Of a stretch of 64,000 nucleotides of DNA, positions 4,996-64,000 are shown piece by piece (position 1 is the first letter of the stretch; the number at the start of each line of letters is the position of its first letter). This stretch comes from Acetomicrobium flavidum (GTDB lineage Bacteria > Synergistota > Synergistia > Synergistales > Acetomicrobiaceae): the NCBI RefSeq assembly GCF_900129645.1, contig NZ_FSQZ01000001.1, positions 558,001 through 622,000 of the forward strand, in the 5' to 3' direction. The notes under the pieces were generated by a model. The model was given only the letters and a program-made list of their open reading frames with translations, had not been told where the DNA came from and ran no database searches. The position numbers were made by a program, and so were the translations under genes.

Positions 4996-6060
4996 TTAAC
5001 ATTCATAATTCACCATACTTTTGGTTAAAAGATTTACTATTCTTTTGGCACCGCTACCATCGATTGATACCTGCCCAAGCCAAGACATATCAATCCTACG
5101 TTTTTTATCTAGTAATAAATCCATGATTACTTCACTTAAACCTGACAGCGATATGTCACAATACCATCCCAAGTTCACGGCATAACCGAGATTGTCAAGA
5201 TATTCAGCTGCCGATCGTTGATTTTCTGCAAGAACTACAATAACGAACGGTACCCCCATAAACGCCAGCTCCCAACAGGTTGTGCCTCCTGCCGTTATAG
5301 CCACATCAGCCCAGGCCATCAGTTGGGACATATCTTTAACGTCTCTTTCGATGCGAACAGGCAAATTTGCGGTCTCGACAAAATCTTTTAAGGCACCATA
5401 ATGAGGATTGCTGCCGCCGACTACGCAAACGGCTTCAAAGCCGTCTATGTCGATATTCTTTAACGCCTGAAGCACCTTCAGCGTGACGTTTTGCGGGTCG
5501 CTTCCCCCCATCGTGACAAGCATCTTGCGGGCAATGTCCGGCATTTCCCGCCTGTAACCTTGCCACCTTAAAAACTCACGCCTTAAAAGCACGTAGCGGG
5601 TTCCAAGCAGAAGTTTTGTATAGGAAGCCCTGTTTCGGTAAAGATCTTCGTCGGCATGTATGTTTTGGTTTAAAACTATGTCGGCCGGGTAATAATCTGT
5701 ATGTCCGTAGTCGTCGATGAACAAAAGATTTAAGCCTGCTTCTTTTATGATCTTTTGATAATCTCCGTCAAAATGATATCCGTCAACAACGACCCATGAG
5801 GCCCCATATTTATGCGCCAGCTTCGTCGTCAAACGTGCATCCTCCGCACTGCCGGGCTTCGTGTTTATATGAAGGACCTCAAACCCCTCGGCGGTGAGTC
5901 TTGCCTCTGCGTTTGGTGATTTCGTTGCCAAGACAAATACCACATCCCCAGCGTCATCCTGCCAAGCCTGAGCCAGGGCAAGACAGCGCATTACATGGCC
6001 GCTGCCCATATTTATGCCGGAGTCGACGCGTACCAACAAAACACCATTATCTAAACTCAT
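4996..6060 (-). CDS. pseG: UDP-2,4-diacetamido-2,4,6-trideoxy-beta-L-altropyranose hydrolase
   Basis: A 354-residue GT-B-fold hydrolase of the PseG family. It removes UDP from the diacetamido altrose intermediate before the PseI step. The N-terminal GSGHVMRCLALAQ carries the conserved catalytic His22; KMLVTMGGSDPQNVT opens the second Rossmann domain, and AITAGGTTCWELAFMGVP is the nucleotide-diphosphate site. The start codon overlaps the pseF stop by 4 nt, indicating coupled translation. Confidence 0.93.
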   Translation of the reverse strand: MSLDNGVLLVRVDSGINMGSGHVMRCLALAQAWQDDAGDVVFVLATKSPNAEARLTAEGFEVLHINTKPGSAEDARLTTKLAHKYGASWVVVDGYHFDGDYQKIIKEAGLNLLFIDDYGHTDYYPADIVLNQNIHADEDLYRNRASYTKLLLGTRYVLLRREFLRWQGYRREMPDIARKMLVTMGGSDPQNVTLKVLQALKNIDIDGFEAVCVVGGSNPHYGALKDFVETANLPVRIERDVKDMSQLMAWADVAITAGGTTCWELAFMGVPFVIVVLAENQRSAAEYLDNLGYAVNLGWYCDISLSGLSEVIMDLLLDKKRRIDMSWLGQVSIDGSGAKRIVNLLTKSMVNYEC

Positions 6061-6773
6061 GGCAGTGTCTTTTGTACGATGTGTTTATTGATCTCAAGCC
6101 ATTCGGGGTGTTCTTTCAGCAAATCCAGCACCTCGCGCCACGAGAACAAATCGTGCCCAAAGTGGTCGTAAATGCGGCGGACGAATTCCAGGTCTTCCTG
6201 GGTGTCCACCGTCCAGCGCATGAAAGACAGATCTTCGTCGTTGCAAACGGCCTTTATGCTAAATTTTTCTGGATGGCGGTAAATGTAAGGCGTAACATGC
6301 TCGCGCCAGGCGGGATTTTTGTCCTCATGCCATATTCGCTCTAAAACGTCAAAGCTAAAGACCTCTGTATCAAGTCCGCGAGGATAATTACGGGTATGGG
6401 CATAATCCGGTTTTGTCTCGATGAATTCTTTAATCACCAAATCAGTAACTTCAGGCTCTATCAAAGGACAGTCCGATGTGATGCGAACGACCACATCGGC
6501 AGAAAACTGTTTTGCCGCCCTGTAATAGCGGTCCAACACATCCTCTTCACTTCCGCGAAACCAGGGCCAGCCTTCGCTTTTGCACAAATCTACCAGGACG
6601 TTGTCTCCGGGCTTTGTCGTGGTTGCCACGACGACCTCGTCCAGCAACTTAGCCCTTCGCACGCGGTTTACAACTCTGACAAGCATGGGTTTTCCTGCCA
6701 AATCCTTTAACACCTTGCCCGGTAGGCGCGTGCTTCCCATGTGGGCTTGAATTATAGCTACTATGCGAGTCAT
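6057..6773 (-). CDS. pseF: Pseudaminic acid cytidylyltransferase (SpsF/PseF type)
   Basis: About 238 residues of a nucleotidyltransferase that activates the nonulosonic acid as its CMP ester. The N-terminal IVAIIQAHMGSTRLPGKVLKDLAGKPML is the CTP-binding signature, followed by VVRITSDCPLIEPEV and DLSFMRWTVDTQEDLEFV. I chose the ATG at 6773, two codons inside the longest frame, because GGGGTG lies 7 nt before it; the ATG at 6779 almost abuts that box. The sequence is of the broader SpsF group, so the PseF name rests on its place between pseC and pseG. Confidence 0.87.
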   Translation of the reverse strand: MTRIVAIIQAHMGSTRLPGKVLKDLAGKPMLVRVVNRVRRAKLLDEVVVATTTKPGDNVLVDLCKSEGWPWFRGSEEDVLDRYYRAAKQFSADVVVRITSDCPLIEPEVTDLVIKEFIETKPDYAHTRNYPRGLDTEVFSFDVLERIWHEDKNPAWREHVTPYIYRHPEKFSIKAVCNDEDLSFMRWTVDTQEDLEFVRRIYDHFGHDLFSWREVLDLLKEHPEWLEINKHIVQKTLP

Positions 6774-6798
6774 GTCCATTCACCCCAAAATGCTTAAT

Positions 6799-8001
6799 TT
6801 ATTCAGCGTACGCGCTAAGCACTTTTTTAACTGCCCTAATGACATCCTCGGCGTCCCTGTCACTCATCGCAGGAAACAAGGGAAGCGTAACGATTTCTTC
6901 GTAAGCTTTCTCCGCCACAGGGCACAAACCTTTTCCGTAACCTAACTTATTGTAATAAGGATGCCAATAAACGGGAATATAGTGCACGTTAACGCCGACG
7001 TTTTCGGCTCGCAGGGCGACAAAGACCTGCAGGCGACTCGCGTTAAGCTTGCTTAAATTAAACCTAACTACGTAAAGATGATACGAAGACTTTCTGTCGT
7101 CCCGCTGGGCTAATGGAAAAAGTGCAGGCATATCGGCAAAGGCCGAGTCGTAAAGGGCAGCTATCTGCCTTCTTCTTGCCACGAATTTATCGAGTTTCTT
7201 TAATTGGCTTAATCCCAAGGCGCAGTTTATGTCGGGCAACCTGTAGTTGTAGCCCAGTTCGGCCATCTCGTAAAACCATGAGCCGTCGGCCTCGCGCTGC
7301 CTGTGGTCCGCAGTTATGCCGTGGTTTCTAAAGGCGCGCAATTTTACGGCAAAATCAGGATTATCTGTTACAACCATCCCGCCTTCGCCTGTAGTTATGT
7401 GCTTTACGGGATGAAAGCTAAAGACGGTCATATCGGCAAGCGTTCCAACCTTACGGTTTTTGTATGTAGCACCCAGCGCATGGCAGGCATCGGCTATAAG
7501 GATAAGACCGTGTTCATCGGAAAGTTTTTTTAAGGCGTCGTAATCGCAGGGTTGACCCGCGTAATCTACTGCTATTATGGCCTTCGTCTTGGGCGAGACC
7601 TTCGACTCCACCGAGGAAGGATCCAAAAGCAGCGTGTCGGCCTCAACATCGGCAAAGACGGGACGTCCCCCACAGTAAAGCACGCAGTTTGCGCTTGCAG
7701 CAAATGTCATAGGCGTCGTTATGACCTCGTCTCCCGGACCTATGCCTGCTGCAAAGGCTGCAGCATGAAGCGCTGCCGTGCCGCTGTTTACGGCGACGGC
7801 ATATTTAGCCCCGACCATTTCGGCAAAGCGCTTTTCAAACTCCACCACTTTGGGCCCTGTGGTCAGCCAATCCGAGCGCAGCACGTCGACGACCGCTTTT
7901 ATATCGTCCTCGTCTATGCACTGATGGCCGTAAGGCAGGAGAGTATTTCTTACGGGACTACCTCCCTCTACAGCTAAAGTATTTTTATCGTCCAAGCTCA
8001 A
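6799..8001 (-). CDS. pseC: UDP-4-amino-4,6-dideoxy-N-acetyl-beta-L-altrosamine transaminase
   Basis: A 400-residue PLP-dependent DegT/DnrJ/EryC1 aminotransferase that puts an amino group on C4 of the PseB product. Lys200 in FSFHPVKHITTGEGG is the expected Schiff-base lysine; VNSGTAALHAA and DACHALGATY bind the cofactor. The start overlaps the pseB stop by 4 nt. The amine it makes is normally acetylated by PseH, which is not visible in this window. Confidence 0.93.
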   Translation of the reverse strand: MSLDDKNTLAVEGGSPVRNTLLPYGHQCIDEDDIKAVVDVLRSDWLTTGPKVVEFEKRFAEMVGAKYAVAVNSGTAALHAAAFAAGIGPGDEVITTPMTFAASANCVLYCGGRPVFADVEADTLLLDPSSVESKVSPKTKAIIAVDYAGQPCDYDALKKLSDEHGLILIADACHALGATYKNRKVGTLADMTVFSFHPVKHITTGEGGMVVTDNPDFAVKLRAFRNHGITADHRQREADGSWFYEMAELGYNYRLPDINCALGLSQLKKLDKFVARRRQIAALYDSAFADMPALFPLAQRDDRKSSYHLYVVRFNLSKLNASRLQVFVALRAENVGVNVHYIPVYWHPYYNKLGYGKGLCPVAEKAYEEIVTLPLFPAMSDRDAEDVIRAVKKVLSAYAE

Positions 8002-9005
8002 TTCACCTTTCCTTGCTTTGCGTAATCGTCTAGGCTTTCGACCATGTTTTTAAGTTCTTCTCCCGTAAGCCACCAACCGTTGCTGTCGCTGGTATAGCAA
8101 AAACCGTCCGGCAAAGGTTTACCGCCGTCGCAGTCATCTTTCTTCCAAAAGGAATGCTCCGGTTCGATGACGTAAAAGCCGTCATATTCCCTGGCGTGTC
8201 TTGCCTCTTCTGCCGTAATCAGGCATTCATGAAGTTTTTCGCCTGGACGTATGCCTATGGTCTCCTTGCATATCCCCGGAGCCAAGACGTCAGCAAGGTC
8301 AACAAGGCGCATGCTTGGAATTTTGGGCACAAAAATCTCGCCGCCCTGCATCCTGCCGATGCAGTCGATGACGAAACGCACCCCCTGCTCCAGGGTGATC
8401 CAAAACCTGGTCATCCGTTCGTCGGTAAGCGTTATCCTGCCCTTTTCCCGCTGGGTTAAAAACAAAGGCACCACACTGCCCCTGCTTCCCACGACGTTCC
8501 CGTAGCGAACGACGCTGAATTTAGTCCTTCTGCTCCCCGTGTAGGCATTGGCCTGAACGAACAGCTTTTCCGCGACAAGCTTAGTGGCTCCGTAGAGATT
8601 GACGGGCTGCACGGCCTTGTCCGTACTTATGGCCATGACCCTTTCAACGCCGTTATCTATTGCGGCATCTATGACGTTTGCCGACCCGTCGATATTGGTC
8701 CTTACGGCTTCGATGGGGTTATACTCGCAGGTCGGAACCTGCTTTAAGGCGGCGGCGTGGACGACTATATCTACGCCGTTCATTGCACGGTATACGCGCT
8801 CCCTGTCTCTGACGTCTCCTATGAAAAACCTTAGCCTAAGGTCATCGTCGAACTCCTGGCGCATCTGGTACTGCAAATATTCTCCTCTAGAAAAGATCCT
8901 TACAGCCTTGGGGTTGTGGGTTTCAAGGAGCGTGCGGGTAAATTTTTTTCCAAACGATCCCGTCCCGCCGGTAAGTAAAATAACTTTGCCATCTATGTAC
9001 ATCAC
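7998..9005 (-). CDS. pseB: UDP-N-acetylglucosamine 4,6-dehydratase (inverting)
   Basis: A 335-residue short-chain dehydrogenase of the PseB/FlaA1 type, the first step of pseudaminic acid synthesis. LTGGTGSFGKKF at 11-22 is the NADP-binding loop. ISTDKAVQPVNLYGATK places Asp129, Lys130 and Tyr138 where the inverting dehydratases have their catalytic Asp-Lys-Tyr set. An AGGAGG box precedes both GTG 9005 (6 nt) and ATG 9002 (9 nt), so the exact start is open. It is the first gene of the operon, and a sigma28-like -10 box lies about 45 nt upstream. Confidence 0.95.
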   Translation of the reverse strand: MMYIDGKVILLTGGTGSFGKKFTRTLLETHNPKAVRIFSRGEYLQYQMRQEFDDDLRLRFFIGDVRDRERVYRAMNGVDIVVHAAALKQVPTCEYNPIEAVRTNIDGSANVIDAAIDNGVERVMAISTDKAVQPVNLYGATKLVAEKLFVQANAYTGSRRTKFSVVRYGNVVGSRGSVVPLFLTQREKGRITLTDERMTRFWITLEQGVRFVIDCIGRMQGGEIFVPKIPSMRLVDLADVLAPGICKETIGIRPGEKLHECLITAEEARHAREYDGFYVIEPEHSFWKKDDCDGGKPLPDGFCYTSDSNGWWLTGEELKNMVESLDDYAKQGKVN

Positions 9006-9941: not shown

Positions 9942-12191
9942 CTACCGCAGCAACTGCAACACGGCCTGAGGCAGGGTGTTTGCCTGGGCAAGCATCGCGT
10001 TGCCGGCCTGCATCAAGATCTGCAGTTTTGTGAAGTTCATCATCTCCTGAGCCATGTCGAGGTCGCGGATGCGGCTTTCGGCAGCGGTCAGGTTCTGGGA
10101 CGCAGTGGTCAGGTTGTTTATGGTGTGCTCCAACCTGTTCTGGTAAGCACCGAGCTTTGCCCGTTGGTTGGAGACCTTGTCGATGGCTCCGTCGATGATC
10201 GTTATGGAGCGGGCCGCAGAGTCGCGGTCGGTGACCAACACTTTATTAATGCCAAGCGAACGCACCGACATGTTGCCAATGTCGATACCCATATCTTCGC
10301 CTTGGTTAGCGCCGATCTGGAAGACCGTGGAGTTATCTGCCAGGTGCAGATAAGTCTGATAGGTTGATTCAGTATTGTTAGAAAGTTTAAACAGTTTAGC
10401 GCTGCTGTCCCAAGCAACAGCCACATCTGCCATGGTATCAAACTCAACATCAACGTTGGGATGCACTATGCCGATCAATATGTTGCCGGTCACGTTTACG
10501 TTTTGTGCTATGGTTTCTCCGTTGTGAGCATCCTCCACGTTCACGGTAAAGACGTTTTCCTTCGAGGCCTGGATTTGACTCAAGCTCAAGGCCTTGAGGA
10601 CGTCTTCGTCGCCGGTGAAGGAGATCTCGCCGTTTTTGCCCGCCACGACGCTCCTTATGACTATTGTTCCCGTGACCGTCTCCGGGTCAAATCCTTCGGG
10701 AAGGTCGTTTTCTTCGTTCACGTAAGTAACAAAGTTATTGGCGCCTTCGCCCGAGACGTACTGTCCCTGGCCCAATTGGTCTCTGATGGCGGCATTGAGC
10801 TTCTCGACGACATCGCCAATGGTGTCGGTGGCATAAAGCGTCACCGTGGCCTTATTGCCGTCTCCCTGGATCATGGTGATGGTCTGGGGATCTTCGAGCA
10901 GGAACTTGCCGTTGGCGTCCCAGAAGCGGTCTATGTCGTGCAAACTGGCCCACTGGGGAGCCACGTCTCCAATGCCGGCCGTAACCGCCGGCTCGGAGCT
11001 GATAGTTATGTTTGGAGCCGTGACGTTGAAGGTTATACTATTAGTCGGATCTAAGTTAACACCCGTTTTAAATTGGACCTTAATCTTTCCGGCAGTATCA
11101 ATGTTAAATTCAGCGCTGGTACTCCCATTGGTTACTGGTACTGTCACTGATATTCCGTTCCACTTAAGAACAGCAGAAGACACATTAGTAGAACCAGCAG
11201 TGCTGGCCTTAAACGTCAGCGTATACTCCCCTTCCGGTACGACGCCGGTGATGGTGATTGGGTTATTTGTAGCCAAAATACTGGCAGAACCACCAATACC
11301 TACAACAAGGCTAGGAGTGTAAGTGAACGTCTGAGTCGCTTCGTCCCCTTCGCTGATGCTCGCCAGCACGTCGGGGTCGAGGTTGACCGTGATGGAATTG
11401 CTGGTCTCAATTTCGAACGTAGCGGTGTTATTGACTAGATCTATTGTTCCGTTTGTGGAGCTATTCGTACCCCAATTAAGCTTAGCAACGATATTGCCAT
11501 TACTAGTGGTTAACGTGACCGTGTATTCCCCTGCCTTTAAAGAGCCACTCGCGCCTACATTAACATCTACGTCGGTTATCATGGTCGTGGAAATATCGTG
11601 TTTCACCTTGAATATGTCGCTTTTCTGGATCTGGCCCTGGCCGGGGGTGGCCTCGATGGTGATCTTGAAGTTGCCCTCTGCGGCGGCCTTCTGGCCGAAC
11701 TGGTCGATCTGCCGCAGGCTGCCGCGCACGAAGGCCTTGGTCTCTAACTTGTCCGAGGACCAGAGCACCGAAGCGGAACCATCGAGCAGTTTTTTCTTGT
11801 TGAACTGCGTAGTGGAGGCTATGCGGTCCACTTCTTCCTTTAGCTGGTCGATTTCCGACTGGATGACCTGGCGGTCGTTTGCCGTCAGGGTATCGTTCGC
11901 TGCCTGCACGGCAAGCTCCCGCATCCTCTGCAATATGGAATGGGTCTCGTTTAGGGCACCCTCTGCGGTCTGGATCATGGATATGCCGTCCTGGGCGTTT
12001 CTTACGGCCATGTCCAGGCCTCTCACCTGGGCCCTCATCTTCTCGCTTATGGCGAGGCCTGCCGCGTCGTCGGCGGCCGTGTTGATCCTAAGCCCCGTCG
12101 ACAGCTTGTTGATGGACTTCTGCAGAGATTCGTTGGTGCTGTTCAATGCATTATAGGTAAATAACGCGGGAATATTGTGATACACTCTCAT
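9942..12191 (-). CDS. fliC: Flagellin, large form with expanded variable domain
   Basis: A 749-residue filament subunit. Residues 1-140 form the conserved N-terminal D0/D1 helices ([24 protein letters not shown], then [33 protein letters not shown]). Residues 655-749 form the C-terminal half ending [19 protein letters not shown]. Between them lie about 500 residues, far more than in a typical 270-500-residue flagellin. Residues 217-290 and 317-392 are two copies of a Ser/Thr-rich beta module (GEYTVTL... and GEYTLTF...), and 449-535 resembles a flagellin_IN motif. The gene has its own sigma28 promoter, a structured leader and GGAGGAGG 8 nt before the ATG. Adjacent Maf and pse genes suggest Ser/Thr glycosylation of the exposed domain. 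Confidence 0.96.
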
Positions 12192-12324: not shown

Positions 12325-14874
12325 TTAATCGGCATTTGCGGGCTCAAACTTTATACTTATCCCGAAGGCATCAAAAAATTTTTCCTGAAATTTTTCCACA
12401 GGCATATCGGCATTCATGCACTCCCTCAATGTGCGCGTGGCAATGGATGCGACCCACGAACCTCCGCCCGTTCTAAGCACCGCCAGCGCCAGGGGGCTTT
12501 CTGCCTTAAACCTGTCGAGCAGCTTTGATATCTCGGACAAGTACTCCCTGCGCCTTCCCTCCCAGTAAAGGGCCTCGGCCTTGATGAGGTCGGCAAGAAG
12601 GGTCGAATCCTCGACCTGAACGGAGCCGCTTATTTGAACGAAGGGCGCCAGCGCCCTAAGCTGGGGCGCAAGAAGGGAGGCAAAAAGGGCAAGCCGGCTT
12701 TCGGACATCCCTGAAGACTTAAAAAACTGCTCCGCCCTGTGGTAGGAGCTTAAAAATGTCAGGTATTTGCCGAAGTTGGCGCGGTACAGGAGGTCGTACC
12801 ACCCTCTGCAAAGTCCGTAGAGCCACGGAGGTATTTGCTCCTTTAAGGCCTCTATCATCTGGTTTAGGGGGGCTTCCATGTAGGCGCCGTAGGCCTTCAC
12901 GACCAATTCAAGGAGGGCGTCGGGAGTAAATTTTTCGTCCAGAAAGCTGCTCCACCAAGGCTTGTCTCCAGATGAGGCCACGGCAAGCCAAAGCTCATGC
13001 ATGGGAGCTGGCTCCTCTTCGCTTAAATCTCGATCGACGACGTCTTTGTCCTTCAAAAGGGGCGAAAACATGCCCCAGATCCTCCTCACTTCCTTAAGGT
13101 AGGCCCGCGTAAACTCGACGTCCTCCAAGAGAAGCTCTGCGATCTCCCTGGCCTCGTGAACGGTGCTTATCGACAAATTATCTCCCAGCAGATCGCCGCT
13201 GCTGCTGAACCTTAGGGAGGTGATGACGCCACGCAGGTACTCGCAGTTGTAAAATATGTCCCTCCAGGCTTCCAAGGCGGCCCCGTAGGGCTTTTCCACT
13301 GATTTAAGCGACCTCGGAGAGGCCTTGAGCCTCCTTACCCTTACAAGCTCCTTTCTTATGTCTTCCGTCTCTTTAAGGACGCCGTTTATCTCCTTCAGCA
13401 TGCGGCGCTGATTATCAAGGGTAAGGCCTACGCCTTCCATATTTGCTCCCTTTAAAAAGGAGGGTGCGGGGTCGCTTGCGTGCAGCTTGAGCCTTTCTGC
13501 AAAGGGCACGTGTATGGCGCCGCTAATCCTTGCGCCGCCCTCGGTGCAGTTGTAAACGGGAACGGGAGAAGAGGCAATGGCATGCTCGAATATCTTAAGA
13601 AAGCCGTACCAGTGCCTGTTGGTCTTGACGGATCCAAGGCCGTCCCAGGAAGTGACCTCGATCTCAAGGTCCGTCGGAGCCGACCCCTCGGCAAATCCGC
13701 TGGAATGCGTCCTGCCCCCCTCGCCGTAGGCGAGGTCCTGGCCGACAAATATCACCTCCTTGGGACAGATGGCCTGAGCCAAATGGTAGCAGAAATGGGC
13801 GACGGAGGAGCCGACTTCCAAGTTATTAAAGCCAAGTATCTCGCAAGTTCTGGGGCCGACGGCGTCGGACTGATTGGGGAAAAGGGGGCCAGGCCATTCG
13901 TAAACGAGCTTAGGATATACCTTGCTTGCGAAGGCCAAGACGGGCCTGCGTTCATGGGCGGAAAGGGCCTTTATCGCCCTATGGAGCTTGTCGTAAACCA
14001 CGTGCGAGTAATCGAGGGCAGCTATGACGTGGGGCATGATGCCCTTTTCCATCAAATAATATGCGATGACGTCGTTTGCGACGATCACGCAGTGATGCTG
14101 GGCTTCCCCTAAAAGCTCGATCTGCCTGTCAAGCGAAGGCCCCGCCGAGACGACTACGGCGGGCTTTCCCCTCCAGTGTTCCTGCATTTCCTGCAGCGTT
14201 ACGACGCATCTGTCCTTGTATATGTAGGCGTTGAGGGCCGTCTGGACCGTCTCCACCAAATTTCTCGACAGCGGGATGGTGCTTGTGGAGACGGCAGAAA
14301 GGAGCATCCCCCTGTATTCGTTCAAGAACTGTTTCATCCTTGAGATGTCGCTTCCCGAATACTGCTTGTGTACGTATATGGAAGGCTCTATTTTGCCCAT
14401 GAGCCTTACCCAGGGAGATATCTTGCGCCACTGGGTGTCCCTTTCGGCCCTGTCCTTTCCAACGACGAAAAACAGCTTTCCCCTGGAGATGAGGTAGGAA
14501 AAATCGTGCAGATGAAATGCCCAGTAAAGAGAGGCGATCTCCAGCTCGCAGCAGATTATCCTGAGATTTTCTCCCCTTTCGGCGAAGGTGTTTAAAAATT
14601 GGTTGCCCAGGCCCAGCCCAAGCACTATGGCGCTTTTGCCTTCTGGGTTTTCGTTGACGCAGTTGTAACGTAACCCTGCATTTTCGATGAAGCACAGCTT
14701 ACCTTCGCCATCTCGAAGCTCGACGTAAGGGCCCTTGTAGCTCACCGTCCAAGAGGCAAAACCCAAGCTTGCCGCCGCCCGTTCAAGAAGCTCTATCAGG
14801 TAAGGTTGGGTAATTTCCAGGGCTTTTAAATTAGCCTTCCAGGTCAATTCCATTTCCTTAGTAGCTACGGACAT
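12325..14874 (-). CDS. maf: Maf-type motility-associated glycosyltransferase (DUF115)
   Basis: An 849-residue member of the motility accessory factor family, which transfers CMP-activated nonulosonic acid to flagellin. Around residue 235 RGKPAVVVSAGPSLDRQIELL marks the start of the MAF_flag10 domain; VIVANDVIAYYLMEKGIMPHVIAALDY and KEVIFVGQDLAYGEGGRTHSSGF are further conserved strands. The N-terminal 200 residues have a glycine-rich AIVLGLGLGNQFL segment typical of the family. AGAGGTG lies 7 nt before the ATG. It sits between flgL and the flagellin gene, close to its proposed target, and the pse locus would supply the donor. Confidence 0.93.
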   Translation of the reverse strand: MSVATKEMELTWKANLKALEITQPYLIELLERAAASLGFASWTVSYKGPYVELRDGEGKLCFIENAGLRYNCVNENPEGKSAIVLGLGLGNQFLNTFAERGENLRIICCELEIASLYWAFHLHDFSYLISRGKLFFVVGKDRAERDTQWRKISPWVRLMGKIEPSIYVHKQYSGSDISRMKQFLNEYRGMLLSAVSTSTIPLSRNLVETVQTALNAYIYKDRCVVTLQEMQEHWRGKPAVVVSAGPSLDRQIELLGEAQHHCVIVANDVIAYYLMEKGIMPHVIAALDYSHVVYDKLHRAIKALSAHERRPVLAFASKVYPKLVYEWPGPLFPNQSDAVGPRTCEILGFNNLEVGSSVAHFCYHLAQAICPKEVIFVGQDLAYGEGGRTHSSGFAEGSAPTDLEIEVTSWDGLGSVKTNRHWYGFLKIFEHAIASSPVPVYNCTEGGARISGAIHVPFAERLKLHASDPAPSFLKGANMEGVGLTLDNQRRMLKEINGVLKETEDIRKELVRVRRLKASPRSLKSVEKPYGAALEAWRDIFYNCEYLRGVITSLRFSSSGDLLGDNLSISTVHEAREIAELLLEDVEFTRAYLKEVRRIWGMFSPLLKDKDVVDRDLSEEEPAPMHELWLAVASSGDKPWWSSFLDEKFTPDALLELVVKAYGAYMEAPLNQMIEALKEQIPPWLYGLCRGWYDLLYRANFGKYLTFLSSYHRAEQFFKSSGMSESRLALFASLLAPQLRALAPFVQISGSVQVEDSTLLADLIKAEALYWEGRRREYLSEISKLLDRFKAESPLALAVLRTGGGSWVASIATRTLRECMNADMPVEKFQEKFFDAFGISIKFEPANAD
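12326..12353 (-). promoter_or_regulatory. Sigma28 promoter of the flagellin gene
   Basis: Minus strand: TAAAGTTT (12346-12353), 12 nt, GCCGATTA (12326-12333). Only one base differs from the TAAAGTTT/GCCGATAA consensus. It lies in the last codons of the maf gene, and gives a leader of about 125 nt. Spacing is identical to that of the flgM promoter. Confidence 0.85.
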
Positions 14875-14893: not shown

Positions 14894-17554
14894 TCACTGC
14901 AAAAAGTCCACCAGCGTGGGCTGGATTATCCTTGCTATGGTGGCCAGGCTTGCCTGGTATACGGATTGCGCCATGGCAAACTTGGTCGCCGCCTCGGCAA
15001 GGTCGGTATCCGACACCTTGCTGTAAAGCTCGTTGTAGTTCAAGTTCATCTGCTTTAGCCTCGAGCTTGACGTCTCGTACCTCTTCATCAGGGCACCCGC
15101 CTGGGTCCTGATTCGAAATACGCCGTCCATGGCCTCGTCGATCTTGGGCAGTATGGACTTGGATATGCCTTCCGCATCCCCTTGTTTTACCGCTTGAATA
15201 AGGTCATCAAGCAGGCCAAAGAAATCGGTATAGCCTATATCGGCCGAGGTCCTAGAGGCGACAGCCTGATTATAAGGCCCAACGCCGCCCCTTATGGGTG
15301 AACTTGCGGGTAACCCAGGGACGTCACCTTGAGCCTGAATGACGTATCCCTTTGGAGACCACAACACCAGCCGCAAGTCTCCGGTGTCGTTTTCTGCGAC
15401 CTCGGCCCTTACGTCGCCGCCCTGAAACCTGGCGTTTACGGTATTTACCAAATCATTTACATTCATGCCGTTGGTGTCTATGGTATGGGTATAGCCGTTT
15501 ACGGTGATGCTTAAAGGCCCGCTTCCTGTCCAACCTGATACATCGGTGGCGCTGCGTAAGGCAGTGTCTATTTGCAGAAAGCTGTTTGCGACATCCCCTT
15601 GAACATCATAAACGGCCAGAGGTGAGCCGTCCTTGGCCGCCAGTGAAATCCTTTGGCTTCCTGACGGGTCGCTTAAATTTTCGTCGTATAGGTTTACATC
15701 AAGCCAGGAACCTGACAATCCCTTTATCTTTTTTGCGATCTCCTCGGCAGTCTCTCCAGCCGAGACGGAAACGTCAACCGTGCTGCCGCCCGAACGGATG
15801 CGGATAACGCCGTCGCTTGGCGCGGTCGTCCCGTTAATTTCGTCTCCGGTAATGCCTGAATGAACCCTCAAGTTTGCGGCGATGCCTGACGTGTAATCGG
15901 AAAACTGCGGATCGCCGAAGGGAAGGTCGGTGACCTTTAGCGCCTGCCCCGTCTTTGAATAAAGGGCCACACGGCCGTCCTCAAGCTTTCGGTAGCCGAT
16001 CAAATCCTCACCGACTTGAGACTGTACGGCCTCGGCGACCTTTAGGGCATCCACGTTCCATGTGCCTCCCGAAAGGGTGCCTATCCGGTCGCGGTAAAGC
16101 TTTACGCTATAGCTTTGCCCTCCAACTTCGACGTTGATTAAGGCGGGCATGTTGAGATCAAGCCCGTCCAGGGGAAATACGGCATTTGCGTCATCCATGA
16201 CCAATGCCGTTTGCAAACCGAATTCGGCCGCTGAAGCGCTTGCTGTCGGATTTAGATCGTATATATTAAGTGCCTGGCCGTTCAGGGTGCGAAAGACTAA
16301 TTTTTGTGTTGGAGCTTCGTAATCGTCACCAGACGATTCTTCCCCGTCGCCTTGAACGACAACCTGCAACCAATCTCCCGCAGCGCTGTTGAGCCTGTCC
16401 GCCAGGTCCTGAAGGGAAAGCACAGGCCCGCCGTCTATGCGCACCTCTGCAAAGTCATCGCCGCTTTCAAGCCTCCAGTAAATTGGGCTGTTTGTGGGGT
16501 CTATGGCCTGACCCGTCGGAAATTCGACGCTTTTCAGCGAGGTCTCAATGCCCAAATAGGAGGCCAATCCTATGTGGCTGTGGTCTAAAGGCTTGCTGAC
16601 CTTTTCGTCGCTTGGAAGAGGCTCGAAGTCCGTGGCAGGCCATGAAGTGACCGACAGGGGTTCACCCGTATGGCTTTTTATTACGAGCCTTTGGACTCCG
16701 CGGTTCGTGTCCTTTTCGACGGACACGGACACAAGCTTTCCCACGTCTCCCATGGCAAGGCTTTCGTTTATGAGGCTTGCCAGTTCGTCTAAGCTGTAGC
16801 CCGTAAGCTCTCCCGGGTCTCGAAAGCCGTTCATATCGGACACGTCCTGTAAGCCGTCTTCGTCATCGTCGGACCATTTTTCGGGGATCGTAACCTTGGC
16901 AGTCCTGTCGCCCACTCGGACCTGGAGTACCTCGCTTCTGCCCGTCCAGGAAAAGGACAGGGGAACTTCGTAGCTTTCCAACGTATATTGTCGGTAGCCA
17001 ACGGGAAACACCTCGCGGCCGTGAAAGGAGACCTGGCTTTTTACGCCCCGCTCCATCTCGTATTCTACGTGCAGCTCGTTTCCCGCGTACACTATTTTTC
17101 CGCTGGAATCCCGCACGAAGGGCTTCTGTGAGGCGTTTAGTCCCGAAAAAAGATATCTGCCCTCCACGGAAAAGTCAGCGGTGTTCATCAGCTCCTCCTG
17201 AAGCTGAGATATCTCCTCTGCGACGGCCGCGTACTCTGTCTCGCTGAACGTGCCGTTTCCGGCATAGACGGTCAGCTCCCTGATGCGCTGCATTACGTCG
17301 GTAATTTGATTTAAAGCTGCATCGGTGTTGGATAACCACATGATGCCGTCGTCAAGGTTTTTTTGGTACTGCTCGTTTTCAAATATGGTGGTAGAAAGAG
17401 ATAATTCCCTTCCCACAGCCAAGGGGTCGTCTGAAGGGTGTTGATGCAGCTTTCCCGTGGACATCTGCCGCTGCATCTGCAGCATGCGGGTCAAATTGTT
17501 GTGCATATCGGCCAAAAAGACCTGGTTCATCATGGAGTTGGTGACACGGCTCAT
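14894..17554 (-). CDS. flgL: Flagellar hook-associated protein 3, very long form
   Basis: An 886-residue hook-filament junction protein; usual FlgL is near 300 residues. The ends are standard: MSRVTNSMMNQVFLADMHNN and QMSTGKLHQHPSDDPLAVGR at the start, and KVSDTDLAEAATKFAMAQS and LATIARIIQPTLVDFLQ at the end. The middle holds about five related modules of 65-100 residues (approximately 205-305, 360-433, 475-545, 590-652, 682-748), each with a helix resembling LADRLN and a strand pair resembling RLVLxSxxGxxLxVxD. I chose ATG 17554 (GGAGG 7 nt upstream); the longest frame starts at 17575 inside flgK. It is separated from maf by 19 nt. Confidence 0.93.
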   Translation of the reverse strand: MSRVTNSMMNQVFLADMHNNLTRMLQMQRQMSTGKLHQHPSDDPLAVGRELSLSTTIFENEQYQKNLDDGIMWLSNTDAALNQITDVMQRIRELTVYAGNGTFSETEYAAVAEEISQLQEELMNTADFSVEGRYLFSGLNASQKPFVRDSSGKIVYAGNELHVEYEMERGVKSQVSFHGREVFPVGYRQYTLESYEVPLSFSWTGRSEVLQVRVGDRTAKVTIPEKWSDDDEDGLQDVSDMNGFRDPGELTGYSLDELASLINESLAMGDVGKLVSVSVEKDTNRGVQRLVIKSHTGEPLSVTSWPATDFEPLPSDEKVSKPLDHSHIGLASYLGIETSLKSVEFPTGQAIDPTNSPIYWRLESGDDFAEVRIDGGPVLSLQDLADRLNSAAGDWLQVVVQGDGEESSGDDYEAPTQKLVFRTLNGQALNIYDLNPTASASAAEFGLQTALVMDDANAVFPLDGLDLNMPALINVEVGGQSYSVKLYRDRIGTLSGGTWNVDALKVAEAVQSQVGEDLIGYRKLEDGRVALYSKTGQALKVTDLPFGDPQFSDYTSGIAANLRVHSGITGDEINGTTAPSDGVIRIRSGGSTVDVSVSAGETAEEIAKKIKGLSGSWLDVNLYDENLSDPSGSQRISLAAKDGSPLAVYDVQGDVANSFLQIDTALRSATDVSGWTGSGPLSITVNGYTHTIDTNGMNVNDLVNTVNARFQGGDVRAEVAENDTGDLRLVLWSPKGYVIQAQGDVPGLPASSPIRGGVGPYNQAVASRTSADIGYTDFFGLLDDLIQAVKQGDAEGISKSILPKIDEAMDGVFRIRTQAGALMKRYETSSSRLKQMNLNYNELYSKVSDTDLAEAATKFAMAQSVYQASLATIARIIQPTLVDFLQ

Positions 17555-17571: not shown

Positions 17572-20049
17572 TCACCTTCCGACGGTGCCCATGCGATTTA
17601 TGATGGTATCAAGCATCTCGTCAATGGTCGTAATATAACGCGCCATGGCGCCAAAGGCCTGCTGAAACTTGATTATGTCCATCATCTCCTCGTCGATGTT
17701 GACGCCCATGACGGACTGTCTCTGCGCGTTGATCTGATCGGTCAGTGATCTCTGGTTTTCTGCCATGGTCGTCGTCCTCTGTCCCTGCGCTCCCAAGCGT
17801 GCCATGAAGCTCAGGTAAAATTCCTCAAAGCTCTGGCTTCCTCCCGACATGACCTTGTTTTGCTTGAGCTGTGCGAGCGCAAGCGCCTTGGTGCCATCGC
17901 CGCTGCCTAACGTCTTGCCCGTACCGTCGTCTCCTGCAGCGGCGATTAAGCTTGAGTCCTCTTCGACCAGGGGGTTAACCTCAAGTCCGGCGGCTGCTCC
18001 GTCGCGTTTGGCCATGGGGCTAAAGAAGGCCGTCCCCGTCACGTCAGCGTTTTCGCCCATGCCGTGGCCCGAATAGTGAAGGGCGTTCATCTCCAGGGCC
18101 AGCCTGTAAGCCAGCTCGTCAAAGGAGGCAAGGTGAGACAGGATCACATCATCGCGAGCCTCCATGGTTGCATAGATCTTGCCGCCCTGCACGTGATGGT
18201 CGACGGTTATGGAGGCCTTTCCCGTTCCTCTTAGCTTTAGAAATATGCCCTTCGATATCTCGCTCATCTTATCGGCGGCGTAGCCGTCGGAGGGCGTAAT
18301 GAGCCTACCGCTTGAAAAATCGTTGACCGATGAGATGTAGCTTGCACCGTCGAAGGAGATCAGGGCATCTTCCGCCGTCGTCATGAAGTTGGTGGTCCCG
18401 TTATCCCTTAAAAGGCCAAGGCTTTTTGCCACGTAAAGCCCGCCGTTTTCGTCGCCTAAAACGTTAATCCTTTGGGCTTCGCCTATGACCTGGCTTTCAA
18501 GGGTCAGATAATAAGTGCCGTCAGAGGCTTGTTCGACGGAAGCCCTAAGCCAATCTTCGGGCTTAGACGGTCCTCCTTCGCTCATGTAGGAACCGTTTAT
18601 CTTATTTGCTATGGTGTTCAACGTGTCTTCTTCGGTGACGTCTATGGATACGGTCTCTGCTTGGTCGGCAATGCCCATGGTATCTGTCAGGTTGCCCTTG
18701 ATATCGACAAGGGAGATCAAATGCCCCTCCGACGAGGCTATGGTAAGGCGGTTATCGGATGTGACTGACGCGTTCAAATACGAAGAATAGTTTGCGTTTA
18801 TAAAGTCGGATAAATCCTGCAGGGAAAGGGAAGGAGCGGCAGCCTGCAGAGTGTTCCCGGAAATATCGCTTATATCCCACCGAGAGGCACTGGCATTCCA
18901 AACTACGGAAATGACGCTTTCAAATCCGCCGGAAGCCAGGCGAAAGCTGTACTGCTGCGGGTCGCCTGCTGCCGGAGGCGGCAACACGCCGCCAGAAAAT
19001 TGGGCGGAGGTCTTAACTACCCCGCCTGAACTTACCTGAAGGGAAAAGGCGCCGTGAAGGTTCAGCGCCTGGTCGGGACTGACTGCGTTTGACAGGCTGC
19101 CCGGAAAACCTACCTTCCAGGCGGTCTCGCTTGCAAGTCTGCTTACGATGACCGAATGCACTGATTTTGATGCTTCCTGTTCAATCCTGGCCAAAATGAC
19201 GTCGCTGTTGTCAACGACGCTAAACAAATTGTCCTCCACCTGGACGTCGTAAAAGCCGTCGTTTCCGGGCACTGGAACGAGCACCAGGTGCCTCGTGTTT
19301 GTGCCCTGCACAAGGACCTTGCCGTGGAGGTCTATCTTGTAGTCTCCATCTTCTTCCTGAACGGGAGTGGACACGGATATGTCCACAAGCTCGCTCAGCT
19401 TCTCGGTGAGCAGGTCGCGCCTGTCAAGCAGGTCGTTGGGGTTGCCGCCCACGCCCTTGACCTGTGCGATCTTTTCGTTCAGGGCAGCTATCTGGTCAAT
19501 CAGGGAGTTGGCCTCCGTAACGAGCGATCCTAAGTCCTGGTTTAGAGACGTCCTGTACTGTTCGTAGTTCTTGGACAGCTGCCCCAAAAATACGGTGAGG
19601 TTCTTGGCGTTTTGAATCACGCCCTCTCGGGCGGCAGCATTGTCGGGCCGTTTGGACAACTCTTCAAGGGAGGACCAGAAATTATCCAATGCCGTCTTAA
19701 GCCCCTCACCGGCAGGCTCGTTTACGAAGAGCTCTATGTTGTTTACGGCCTCCTCCATCGTTTCCCAATACCCCAAGGTAGACATCTCCTCGCGGTACTG
19801 AGCGTCAAGGAAGGCATCCCGCAACCTCCTTATCGCCTCTATCTGCACGCCCGTGCCGATTTGGCCCGGCGTGGCGGGGCGGTTAAGTGCAGGATCAGCA
19901 AAAGGAGCTGAGCTTCCAGCCTCGACCCTTTGCCTGGAGTAGCCGTCGACGTCGGCGTTGGATATATTGTGTCCGGCCGTCTCCATTCCCCTTCTGAAAT
20001 AGTCTAATGCCCTTCGGCCCATCTCCAAGCCAAAGAAGGAATTGATCAT
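17572..20049 (-). CDS. flgK: Flagellar hook-associated protein 1
   Basis: An 825-residue junction protein. The N-terminal rod-like motif (FFGLEMGRRALDYFRRGMETAGHNISNADVDGYSRQR) and the C-terminal QSVMGVNIDEEMMDIIKFQQAFGAMARYITTIDEML are diagnostic. It is longer than the usual 450-650 residues, with an internal region carrying at least two modules like those in the neighbouring FlgL (for example LSLQDLSDFINANYSSYL followed by RLTIASSEGHLISLVDI). FlgN, its likely chaperone, is encoded 12 nt upstream. Confidence 0.95.
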   Translation of the reverse strand: MINSFFGLEMGRRALDYFRRGMETAGHNISNADVDGYSRQRVEAGSSAPFADPALNRPATPGQIGTGVQIEAIRRLRDAFLDAQYREEMSTLGYWETMEEAVNNIELFVNEPAGEGLKTALDNFWSSLEELSKRPDNAAAREGVIQNAKNLTVFLGQLSKNYEQYRTSLNQDLGSLVTEANSLIDQIAALNEKIAQVKGVGGNPNDLLDRRDLLTEKLSELVDISVSTPVQEEDGDYKIDLHGKVLVQGTNTRHLVLVPVPGNDGFYDVQVEDNLFSVVDNSDVILARIEQEASKSVHSVIVSRLASETAWKVGFPGSLSNAVSPDQALNLHGAFSLQVSSGGVVKTSAQFSGGVLPPPAAGDPQQYSFRLASGGFESVISVVWNASASRWDISDISGNTLQAAAPSLSLQDLSDFINANYSSYLNASVTSDNRLTIASSEGHLISLVDIKGNLTDTMGIADQAETVSIDVTEEDTLNTIANKINGSYMSEGGPSKPEDWLRASVEQASDGTYYLTLESQVIGEAQRINVLGDENGGLYVAKSLGLLRDNGTTNFMTTAEDALISFDGASYISSVNDFSSGRLITPSDGYAADKMSEISKGIFLKLRGTGKASITVDHHVQGGKIYATMEARDDVILSHLASFDELAYRLALEMNALHYSGHGMGENADVTGTAFFSPMAKRDGAAAGLEVNPLVEEDSSLIAAAGDDGTGKTLGSGDGTKALALAQLKQNKVMSGGSQSFEEFYLSFMARLGAQGQRTTTMAENQRSLTDQINAQRQSVMGVNIDEEMMDIIKFQQAFGAMARYITTIDEMLDTIINRMGTVGR

Positions 20050-55626: not shown

Positions 55627-58600
55627 TTACCTGGCACGTTCAGCGGAAACCGGCAAATGAGCGACCTCTTCTTCAACCTCCACGACATCAAAGTTCCTAT
55701 TGGGAGTTGCTCCAGTGCCAGCCGGGATCAGATGACCTATTATTACGTTTTCCTTCAGGCCTCTGAGGTAGTCTATTTCGCCTCTGACGGCAGCAGAGGC
55801 AAGGGCCTGGGCTGTCTGCTGGAAGGATGCTGCAGACATAAAACTGTCCGTCGCCAAAGCCGCCTTGGTGATGCCGAGCAATACCGGCTTCCATATGGGT
55901 TCCTGGCGAAGCTTTCGCACAAAGGTCACCCTTTGGATCAACTTCTCGACTTGAGAGAGAGCGAGTATCGGTCTTACCACTATCTTCGTCGGTTCAAGCT
56001 CTATAAGCCGCTCGAGGACTTGCTGATTTATCTCGGTTCCCGCAGGGATAATGACGTCACCAAGGCGATCCCTTACGGGTTCCAGCAAGACCTTGCCGTA
56101 AATTTTATCGGTCATAACGCTGTGCAATATCCTTTGCCTGGAATAGATCTCCCCGTCGGCCTCGATGGCGGTTATCTTGCCTTCGATTATACCCCTAACA
56201 ATACCTCCATCAACGATGGGGGGGATATCTTCAAGCTCGTTGCCGTTCGAATCTATTGCCCTACTTAAAGGCCGACCCCATATTTTGCTGATGAGGTATT
56301 CCTGGATGGCGTCAGGCAAATCGACGGTCTCCGGAGCCTTCCATACCTTAATCTCCTTTACCGATTTCTCCTTTAACTTCAAAGCTATGTCCTTTGTCAA
56401 AAGACCGTCCTTGGGGGCTATGACCATTCCATCGCAAACTACGTCTTCGGCCAGATAGGTGACATCGCAAAGGGTAAGGAGTTTCTCCGTATCCATTACC
56501 TGCAGCGGCCTGCGCAAATCCTGGGTAACCAGTGCAAGCTGCTTAATGCTCAGGGGCACGCCTGCCTCTATGCGTACGCCGTTGCCGCCCTCATAGGGTT
56601 CAACCAGCTCCAACCCATCGAGTTCCCTCCTGAACAGCGACTCTCCCACTATTACGCGAACCTGCTCTCCCTGGTCTTCGACGACGAGCTCGGAAAGCAC
56701 CGTGCCCGGCTGAAGAAGGATCTTTATTGCCTGTTCGTCCAAGATTTCTCCCTTATATTGCGCTGCGTGCTCCAACGAACCCTTGCCGATCACGTCTTTG
56801 AGGACCTTGCCCTTCAGCAAGGCGACAGAATCGTCCATGCATCGCCTATTATGGCTCCTAATTTCCTCTATTTCCCTTTCCAGCTCGTCCAGCCATACTA
56901 TTTCGCCGACCACGTAAGAGGTATCTCCTTCGTCGGCTATGCGCACCTTATTAACAGGGGCAACCTTGCGCAAGATTACCTCGATGTGCTTGTTGTTTAT
57001 GGAAACGCCTTGAGACTTGTAGACCTCTTGAATGCCATCGACAAGGTACCTTTGAACGGCCTCTATGCCCTTAACATCCAGCAGTTGCTGAGGATCGATG
57101 TAACCCTCCGTCAAGACCTGACCCTTCGTCACCTCATCTCCCTCTTCAACAAGAAGCAGTTGGGCGGAAGGCACGTTGAACGTCACCTTCTCGTCGGCGT
57201 TTTCACTGGACTGGATGACGATCTTCCTCTTGCCTTCCATCTCCCGAATCTCGACGACCGTGCCGTCGATCTCGGAAAGAAGGGCTGTCTTTTTGGGCTT
57301 CCTGATCTCGAAAAGCTGCTCGACACGAGGCAGACCCTGAGTGATATCCTCTCCTGTAATCCTGACGCCGCCGGTATGGAACGTCCTCATAGTAAGCTGC
57401 GTTCCCGGCTCTCCGATCGACTGGGCTGCCACTATGCCCACTGCCTCGCCAATTGACACGGGCTTTCTTGAGGAAAGATCCAAACCGTAGCACTTTTGGC
57501 ATACGCCGTTACGTAGCCCGCAAGTCATCGGGCTTCTCACCCATACACCTTCTACGCCTGCAGCTTCTATGGCATCGGCTTTCTCCTGATCGATGATATC
57601 TCCGGCCTTTACCATAATTGTCCCATCTCCGGGGTGACGCACATCCTCAAGGGCAGTTCTTCCGTATATCCTTTCGCTTAGGGAAATGACGACCTTGCCG
57701 TCTTGAAGCAGCGGAGTCATGAATACCCCCTTATCCGTCCCGCAATCTTCATCGATGACGATCAAGTCTTGCGATACATCGACGAGACGCCTCGTTAAAT
57801 ATCCGGACTTGGCAGTCCTCAAGGCCGTATCGGCGAGCCCCTTCCTTGCTCCGTGAGTCGAAATGAAGTATTCCAACATGTTCAGGCCTTCCCTGAAGTT
57901 GGAAATAATCGGGTAATCTATGACTTTACCCGAAGGATCGGCCATGACTCCCCGGATGCCGGCCATCTGCGAGACCTGGCTCTTGCTACCGCGAGCTCCC
58001 GAGTCGACCATCATCCTCAAGGGGTTAAACTCATCCATATGCTGCAATATACAGTCGGCGATCTTCGAGGCCGCCTCAGTCCAAAGCAACTCCGTCTGTC
58101 TCAGGTATTCGTCCTCGGTCAGGATGCCCATGCCATACTGAACGTTGAGCTCGCTCTCCTTATCGAGGACCTCCTTCACTATCTCCTCCTTCTCGGGAGG
58201 AATGACAACGGAGTCTATATTTAGGGAGATGCCGCTCTTAGTGAACCACTTATATCCCAATAGCTTGATGTCATCCAGCATCTTTACCAGATCTTCATGT
58301 TCAATCTTGTCAAAAGCCAAATCGAGCAAAGCACCTAAATCCTTTTTGGCAATCTGCCTGTTTATATATCTGAGAGATGGATGCAAGACGCTGTTGAACA
58401 AAGCTCTGCCGGGAGAAGTTTCTATAAACTCCCCGTTCCAGCGCATCTTCACTCTCGCATTGGGGTGAACGACCCCGTGGTCAAGGGCTATCAGCGCGTC
58501 CTCTATGTCCCTGAAGAGCATGCCCTCCCCCTTGCGTCCATCGGCCATGGCAGTCAGGTAATATATGCCGAGCACGACATCCTGGGTCGGCGTCACAATG

Positions 58601-60588
58601 GGACGTCCGTGCGCGGGCGACAACAAGTTGTGTCCGGCTAGCATCAGGACCCTGGATTCCGCCTGTGATTCCAGCGATAAGGGAACGTGCACGGCCATCT
58701 GGTCTCCGTCGAAGTCGGCGTTAAAGGCGGTGCAGACAAGGGGGTGCAGCCTGATGGCCTTACCCTCCATTAGGAGCGGTTCGAAGGCCTGGATGCCCAG
58801 GCGGTGAAGGGTTGGCGCCCTGTTGAGCATGACCGGGTGGTCCTTTATGATCTCTTCCAGGGCCTCCCAAACCTCATCCCTTCTGCGCTCTATTATGCGC
58901 TTTGCCCCCTTCACGTTTGAGGCTATGCCCTTTTCGATCAACTTATGCATGACGAAGGGGCGAAATAATTCCAGTGCCATTTCCTTGGGCAAACCGCACT
59001 GATAAAGCTTTAACTCCGGTCCTATGACTATGACGGACCTTCCCGAATAGTCCACGCGCTTGCCGAGAAGGTTTTGGCGGAAACGCCCTTTCTTTCCCCT
59101 TAGCAGGTCGGTCAAGCTCTTAAGAGGGCGGTTCCCGGCGCCCAATACGGCCTTGCCCACCCTGCCGTTATCAATGAGGGCGTCAACCGCCTCCTGGAGC
59201 ATTCTTTTTTCGTTTCTTATTATCATGTCAGGAGCATTCAGCTCCTGCAGCTTCTTCAGACGATTGTTCCTATTGATGACACGCCTGTAAAGATCGTTCA
59301 AGTCGGATGTGGCAAACCTTCCGCCGTCAAGCTGGACCATGGGTCGAAGATCAGGTGGAATGACCGGCAAAACGGTCAAGATCATCCACTCGGGCTTGCT
59401 GTCTCCCTTTCTGAAGTCCTCCACGACCTGCAGCCGCTTTATGAGCTTTCGCTTCTTCTGGCCGGTAGAGTTGGCTATCTCCTCGCGAAGCAATATGGCA
59501 AGCTCATCTATGTCTATGCGCCTGAGCAGTTCAAGAAGGCTTTCGGCCCCGATTCCTGCCATAAAATCCTTGTCGTAGGCACGGCACAGCTTATGTTCCC
59601 TTTCCACTATAATGTCACACTGTTCAAAGGGAGAATTGCTGCCCTCTATGACTATGTACGACGGATCCTCGATGGCAATTGTCTCCTGCTGAGAGTTGAA
59701 CCTGCCGGGATAGTTTTTCATGTAAAGCTGCAGCTCCGAGGCGGACAAAATGTCGTCCTTTGCGAAGGGAAGACGAACGGCAGCTATCACCATGAAGGCT
59801 TCCTGATTTTTGATGGCAGTCCTCTCAAACTCTACCTTTATGCCCTGTTTCTTGAGCCTATCTATGTCACCTTGGCTCACTATATCCCCGGCCTTAAACT
59901 GAGCGCCCTCCTCGATCTCCGTTATCGTGTAGGCCGGCTCCACCTTGAAGAGGTCGTCTCCGTACTCCGTACGATAGCGGGAGACCTGTTGAGCGGAAAG
60001 GATGTCCCCTTCCTTTAGGGGCAGGTCGTCGACGCTGGTAATGCGATAGGCCTCTTCGGCTTTGAACTTGGGATCGTAATGCCTGTGGATGCGCTCCTCG
60101 CATGCCGGGATCAAGTCTCCTTTTTTGACTAAGTCGGGCCTCTTGCCTTCCATCACGACCTTGTACAGCAACTCCCTCCGCCTAAGGGGAGCAAAGTAGA
60201 CGACCCTTTCCAGGTCCTTGGAGGTCGTTCCCAAAAACAGGCTGAGCCTGCTGGGAATTCCGCGCAGATACCATATATGCACCACAGGGCAGGCAAGCTC
60301 GATATGCCCCATCCTCTCGCGCCTCACCTTGCTGTCGGTCACTTCCACGCCGCAACGATCGCACACTATGCCCTTAAATTTAGGGCCATTGCGCTTGTAT
60401 TTTCCGCAGGCGCATTCGTAGCTCCTCACGGGACCGAATATGCGCTCACAAAAAAGACCGTCCTTCTCTGGCCTAAGGGTCCTGTAGTTTATCGTCTCGG
60501 GCCGCTTCACTTCGCCGCTCGACAATTCCCTTATCCTCTCCGGACTTGCAAGTCGGATACGAACGCCCACGATCTCGCGTTTGTCCAT
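55627..60588 (-). CDS. rpoC: RNA polymerase beta' subunit (long form)
   Basis: A 1653-residue subunit, longer than in Bacillus (about 1200) or E. coli (about 1400). Cys59, Cys61, Cys76 and Cys79 form the N-terminal zinc site; NADFDGDQ at 623-630 holds the catalytic Mg-binding aspartates; a second zinc site includes [13 protein letters not shown]. Between the zinc site and the core, residues about 181-342 hold four related units (YRITSVDD..., YTITEIEE..., FMVIAAV..., YIVIEGS...), each containing a (G/D)DI(L/V/I) turn. Large insertions here are also known in Thermus and Thermotoga. It starts on the base after the rpoB stop. Confidence 0.98.

Positions 60589-64000
<3,412 letters not shown>

Follow-up and report, generated by a model that had tools for sequence, protein, structure and literature searches.

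Why should a protein of the hook-filament junction be nearly three times its usual size, and what would the additional mass do at the joint? The question is raised by an flgL gene in a stretch of 64,000 nucleotides from the Acetomicrobium flavidum genome (hereafter the window). The preliminary description of this DNA had proposed that the protein carries about five tandem modules, which would form a surface collar matching a giant flagellin. We consider it rather probable that the explanation as a whole is an ordinary FlgL core with five inserted modules resembling the D2 domain of the filament cap protein FliD, which would build an outer sleeve around the joint.

Identity and genomic setting of flgL

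The coordinates previously given for the gene, 14894-17554, are right, and we add the strand, which was absent from the preliminary description. The open reading frame lies on the minus strand and runs from an ATG at 17554 to a stop at 14894, encoding 886 residues, while the plus strand of the same interval has stops throughout. An alternative GTG start at 17575 would lengthen the protein by 7 residues. The protein has no cysteine. It is 2.8 times longer than Salmonella FlgL (9go6_L, 317 residues), in line with the size ratio claimed earlier.

The FlgL model TIGR02550 matched the protein at 267 bits, against a curated cut-off of 127.2, and in the genome search its positions 1-185 and 270-387 were covered in two stretches. 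Flagellin_N and Flagellin_C (Pfam) were both above cut-off. The N-terminal D0/D1 helical core comprises residues 1-190 (16985..17554, minus strand), where Flagellin_N matched residues 6-140 and Salmonella FlgL aligned over residues 3-183. The C-terminal D1/D0 helical core comprises residues 780-886 and the stop (14894..15217, minus strand), with Flagellin_C at residues 804-883 (34.4 bits, cut-off 23).

The gene directly follows flgK in a late flagellar run ordered FlgM-FlgN-FlgK-FlgL-Maf-FliC-FlaG. The flgK gene (17572..20049, minus strand, 825 residues; TIGR02492 326 bits, cut-off 170.75) is separated from the flgL ATG by 17 bases, and farther upstream lie FlgM and an FlgN-like gene, the latter at 28.6 bits, below its cut-off of 30.5. 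Because TIGR02550 is well above its cut-off and FlgM, the FlgN-like gene and FlgK lie upstream, the protein is identified as FlgL; it is ordinary in its core, where its two helical ends form the D0/D1 tube. Its nearest named relative is the FlgL of Acetomicrobium hydrogeniformans, with 85% identity across the protein. A scan of viral contigs returned no relative, and a plasmid search matched 52 records, none of which spanned 80% of the query; these matches and three plasmid stretches were set aside. Elsewhere in the window, two large adjacent minus-strand open reading frames of 1653 and 1111 residues occupy 55627-63924.

Five homologous modules

The outer insert (residues 197-770) consists of five modules of ~95-145 residues each. 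Units were marked by eye first, and their bounds were then set by HMM. All five lie on the minus strand and are supported by HMM and profile-profile comparison. M1 is an HMM match at residues 197-311, extended to residue 340 by a closing segment read from the alignment (16535..16966); it is followed by M2 (residues 342-456; 16187..16531), M3 (463-570; 15845..16168), M4 (575-676; 15527..15832) and M5 (674-770; 15245..15535).

Profiles of each module were built from 15 FlgLs of similar length and compared with one another against 20 column-permuted controls. All ten pairs exceeded the best of their controls, with hhalign probabilities of 99% for M2-M4, 96% for M1-M2 and 92% for M2-M3. Even the weakest pair, M4-M5 (probability 9%), scored 21.4, with no control above 14.6. 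When the modules were compared with the N- or C-terminal helical regions, eight of ten comparisons fell inside the control range, and two slightly exceeded it, both with the N-terminal region: M4 (18.6, with controls reaching 14.8; probability 1.9%) and M3 (16.7, with controls reaching 14.2; probability 0.9%). Since the module pairs beat their permuted controls, M1 to M5 are, on profile comparison, homologous to one another beyond chance, and the earlier estimate of about five tandem modules becomes five.

Self-alignment of the single sequence, which the preliminary description had put forward as a check, went only part of the way. Three of the ten pairs reached p<0.05 in 500 shuffles (M1-M5 and M2-M4, both 0.002; M1-M3, 0.024) and the other seven did not, and we rejected this approach as proof of repeats because it is too weak. 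A strand motif occurs once per module, at residues 289, 418, 528, 635 and 728, and no more than twice in any of 5000 shuffles; it was composed post hoc from the window sequence and is thus descriptive only. Relatives have 0 to 4 occurrences each, and we regard the motif, as read from these sequences, as a signature of the window sequence more than of the family.

Module fold and resemblance to FliD

Structure prediction had also been suggested as a check on the repeats. An AlphaFold2 (AF2) model of M4, computed from an alignment of 15 module rows from the window and two relatives, has the order beta-beta-alpha-beta-beta-beta, with a mean pLDDT of 69.1 and a pTM of 0.65; of the seven ten-residue blocks spanning positions 11 to 80, five have a pLDDT of 80-89. 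In the full-length model the M4-like order of elements appears five times, with additional short elements in M1 and M3, and to this extent the prediction agrees with a repeated fold; the model itself is poor (pLDDT 46.9, pTM 0.25) and unusable for packing. Most of the Foldseek rows listed for this poor model are flagellar proteins.

Several searches with M4 led to FliD. The M4 profile (17 rows) matched FliD entries 6sih (E 2.1e-4) and 9gsx_W (E 4.4e-4); six polyubiquitin rows stood above FliD in this search, and the three displayed sum nine matches of less than 6 bits each. Foldseek with the M4 model listed first a chain from 9gsx, a complex that contains FliD, and FliD 6sih, with a best E of 0.039 and no match at E 0.001. 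VIA-align superposed M4 on FliD 6sih with Z 7.1 (2.8 A, 92 residues), on Campylobacter FlgK with Z 6.9 and on Pseudomonas flagellin D2/D3 with Z 6.7; a phage tail protein equalled FliD at Z 7.1, and no row reached Z 8, below which, as the tool warns, a common arrangement is possible. We claim no kinship with phage sheath or tail proteins, whose Foldseek and VIA scores are similar to the flagellar ones.

The Pfam family PF07196 (Flagellin_IN) gave 18.0 bits on M4 of the window FlgL, below the cut-off of 22.7 for formal membership. On M4 of related FlgLs it matched in nine of 17 at E up to 1, the best at 3.6e-5, and on a FliD_C-family frame of the window genome it scored 27.8 bits, above cut-off. 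Among flagellar proteins, the best profile and fold matches of M4 are FliD D2/D3 (6sih, 9gsx, 5h5t) and PF07196. Taken together, these results make the module FliD-D2-like, D2 of the cap protein being what the modules resemble most. The two proteins differ in that FliD is a cap protein, whereas the window FlgL is a junction protein with a PF07196 score below cut-off.

Distribution and history of the array in Synergistota

A search of 166 Synergistota genomes found a match above the FlgL cut-off in 101, and in 118 at E up to 0.001 when flagellin matches are included. From these we assembled 40 complete FlgLs (the window protein and 39 others), one per genome, picked by rank and contig completeness and not at random, with protein starts assigned by a simple rule. 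The survey of lengths in relatives, also proposed previously, bears out an enlarged FlgL with five or more modules. The 36 FlgLs of the same order have 886-1397 residues, the window's being the shortest, and by HMM all 36 carry the succession M1-M2-M3-M4-M5, in some cases with additional modules between or after these. The number of modules within the order ranges from 5 to 8; two FlgLs in which M1 was matched in two pieces were scored as having eight modules, not nine. In 33 of the 36, M1 and M2 are separated by one more module, Mx, which is absent from the FlgLs of the window, A. hydrogeniformans and L100. In FlgLs of ~1000 residues, the alignment places Mx after the last strand of M1 and ahead of the LGMET-like segment that closes M1, so that Mx is nested in M1 there. 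An apparent FlgL of 1787 residues (L065) was dismissed as a frame artefact with a real length of ~1197: its first ~590 residues match neither FlgL nor FlgK of the window, and FlgL starts after them.

The remaining four FlgLs (L085-L088), from two other families of the phylum, have 402-404 residues. They are the same protein as the window FlgL with one module in place of five or more. The single module, at ~residues 198-290 in all four, has M4 as its best HMM and aligns to M4. A module tree was built from 92 modules, those of 15 FlgLs of 886-1113 residues and of the four short ones; it carries a few-columns warning. In it, M1, M2, M3 and M5 each formed one group (15 of 15 rows; bootstrap 99-100). 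Mx was grouped with support of 80/84, and M4 was divided between two clades that neighbour Mx and M2. The modules from the four short FlgLs fell, with weak support, in the half holding M1, M3 and M5 and not with M4. As M1, M2, M3 and M5 each group across FlgLs in the module tree, the five-module array, by this phylogenetic evidence, predates the split of the lineages examined and has been kept since.

In a tree of the core only, a single branch with support of 100 separates the long FlgLs (35) from the short ones (4); this tree was rooted at its midpoint only and carries a long-branch warning. Because of this rooting, growth of the array from one module is something we infer on the assumption that the single module is the older state. 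Within the genus, an FlgL match is absent from two of six genomes (G010 and G013; the window's genome is included in the six), which suggests that flagella have been lost within it, less surely for G010, which is 87% complete.

Selection on the modules

Between the window FlgL and that of A. hydrogeniformans (L003:6001-8667), the five modules have pN/pS values of 0.15-0.25 and the helical ends values of 0.12-0.16; the modules are under purifying selection. These values bear on the idea that the array is near-neutral, with modules multiplying and decaying on an exposed side of the junction that is not constrained. Such drift would fit the variation in module number within the order and the absence of Mx from three of 36 FlgLs, but it is quite unlikely given that the M1-M5 order is retained in every one of the 36 and that purifying selection is seen in each module of the two species compared. 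In the same comparison, pS is lower in the modules (0.28-0.53) than in the ends (0.68-0.75), a hint of possible recombination in the outer part of FlgL.

FlgL size is unrelated to flagellin size

The enlarged FlgL had been explained as matching the thick filament of a giant flagellin. Giant flagellins have over a thousand residues, according to the available part of PMC6248924. The window genome has none above 1000 residues among those found: its sole flagellin (9942..12191, minus strand; Flagellin_N and Flagellin_C) has 749 residues, against the 886 of FlgL, and a weak module HMM match at residues 425-496 (E 1e-4). Separately, we noted by eye two similar beta-rich stretches (GEYTVTL... and GEYTLTF...) that look like a repeat in its outer region, residues ~217-400.

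Lengths were then compared over 32 genomes, using open frames, which overstate lengths, for all but the window's own lengths. The main flagellin was the one beside flgL where present; it lay ~50-60 kb away in three genomes (G161, G110, G008) and on a separate contig in a fourth (G155). For G097, whose flagellin near flgL is cut at 68 residues, a 1963-residue frame was used. Flagellin-like frames of 247-259 residues (G001-G004) were left out. FlgL length was associated neither with the main flagellin (rho 0.04, p 0.83) nor with the longest one (rho 0.24, p 0.19). Giant flagellins do exist in this order, as the giant-flagellin reading would welcome, with flagellin-like frames of 1840-1983 residues in seven of the 32 genomes, but the median FlgL there is 1031 residues against 1019 in the 21 other genomes with long FlgLs (p 0.44). 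In the four genomes with short FlgLs, the flagellins adjoining flgL have 761-841 residues and are longer than the window's 749. Counted as an open frame (756), the window flagellin is the shortest main one, the 30 others having 761-1014 with G097 set aside; a second flagellin copy in G100, with a frame of 714, is shorter. A match between FlgL and a giant flagellin thus fails in the window and across the genomes compared, and we find this explanation hardly credible. FlgL and flagellin sizes need not go together.

Module-like sequence is not confined to FlgL. The flagellins of the four genomes with short FlgLs have two to three weak module matches each (E 1e-2 to 4e-9). Among nine flagellins of the window's order (two of them cut), seven have one match, one has two and one has none. 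Judging by these matches, the module may have moved between the two proteins, FlgL and flagellin. Two of the giant frames, L116 and L117 (G023:C44 and G097:C2), resemble flagellin at their ends and match the module weakly in a few places. FlgK of the window contains weak module-like stretches at residues 381-465 (E 6e-4) and 455-490 (E 4e-3). FlgL and FlgK lengths are correlated over 29 genomes (rho 0.83); we do not put forward coupled growth of the two, as the link is gone under phylogenetic contrasts (r 0.14, p 0.48, 28 contrasts), which are crude and based on a midpoint root.

Adjoining genes and glycan display

The gene between flgL and fliC (12325..14874, minus strand) is a candidate Maf/PseD-like flagellin glycosyltransferase. 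Its MptE-like domain (PF01973, 112 bits) is above cut-off; the Maf N-terminal domain PF20157 is below cut-off, and NF050051 scored 123.5 bits against a cut-off of 670. The downstream order is this gene, flagellin, FlaG and then sugar-nucleotide genes: an epimerase (7998-9005), a DegT aminotransferase (6799-8001), a cytidylyltransferase (6057-6779) and a glycosyltransferase-28-like gene (4996-6060). Together (4996-9005) they are compatible with synthesis of a pseudaminic-type sugar. The modules might be a platform for glycan display, decorated by the adjoining transferase as flagellin would be, so that the array would concern surface chemistry and not mechanics. The start of the Maf/MptE-like gene 19 bases past the flgL stop and the presumed sugar pathway beyond flagellin and FlaG both fit this proposal, but identical genes would be expected for flagellin alone, and we judge it unlikely.

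A possible outer sleeve at the hook-filament joint

In the solved junctions, as described in the accessible part of PMC12221982, 11 FlgL subunits make up the layer beneath the filament, D0 lying inside and D2 on the exposed side. If the window FlgL assembles with 11 subunits, as in Salmonella and Campylobacter, ~55 modules would surround the joint, and by this analogy the joint probably has a thick outer ring. The modules would contact one another sideways to form an outer sleeve, which would brace and shield the D0/D1 tube at the hook-filament joint and provide a wide base on which the first FliD cap could sit. The ring of ~55 modules follows from homology with the solved junctions only; as packing cannot be read from the full-length AF2 model, neither the ring, its width nor the side contacts draw support from it. 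Bracing the joint and seating the first cap is in our view the likeliest role of the sleeve, a guess from position and fold that we hold at well below even confidence.

A broader proposal is a little less secure still and must be called doubtful. The joint throughout the order would be sheathed by 55 to ~90 FliD-type modules, exceeding the number per subunit in its flagellins, and the module would be distributed among FlgK, FlgL, flagellin and FliD by lineage, loaded onto FlgL here and onto flagellin where FlgL is short.

The modules could also make an adhesive or cell-contact surface of the flagellum. That D2 is exposed in solved junctions, and that some Synergistales live syntrophically, would suit such a function, but no adhesion family was matched in Pfam and a ring located where the filament begins would be poorly placed for contact. 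We regard adhesion as very improbable, and the sleeve remains the reading that we prefer.

Comparison with known junction proteins

Outer domains of FlgL are already known. The FlgL of Xanthomonas campestris (5ziz, 5zj0), according to the available part of PMC6155364, has a D1 core and, as an insert in its helical domain, one D2 of beta-sandwich fold; its chain has 323 residues and one outer domain, against five in the window FlgL. Bacillus FlgL is without an outer domain. Campylobacter jejuni FlgL (9gsx chain A, 750 residues; labelled Flagellin in the entry and assigned to FlgL by its 11 copies and PMC12221982) resembles the window protein in that it far exceeds 300 residues and has a bulky outer D2, which may limit FliD placement, as far as the accessible part of PMC12221982 describes it. 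It differs in that the best sequence match between the two proteins covers only the helical part at the N-terminus (profile 22-198) and that the same portion of PMC12221982 describes no five-fold repeat; this comparison is by sequence and published description.

Among the matches listed from a search of the open PMC literature (titles and abstract starts), no paper on a multi-module FlgL was found. Within those listings, 5-8 FliD-type modules in FlgL as a fixed trait of an order would be new. A parallel in another axial protein is that of the giant flagellins, which are likewise enlarged through an outer insert and also occur in Synergistetes, as reported in the available part of PMC6248924; in the window it is FlgL that is enlarged and not flagellin, which is not giant. 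Alongside these systems, an order-wide FlgL of ~890-1400 residues with a conserved array constitutes a natural test of the role of the junction's outer surface.
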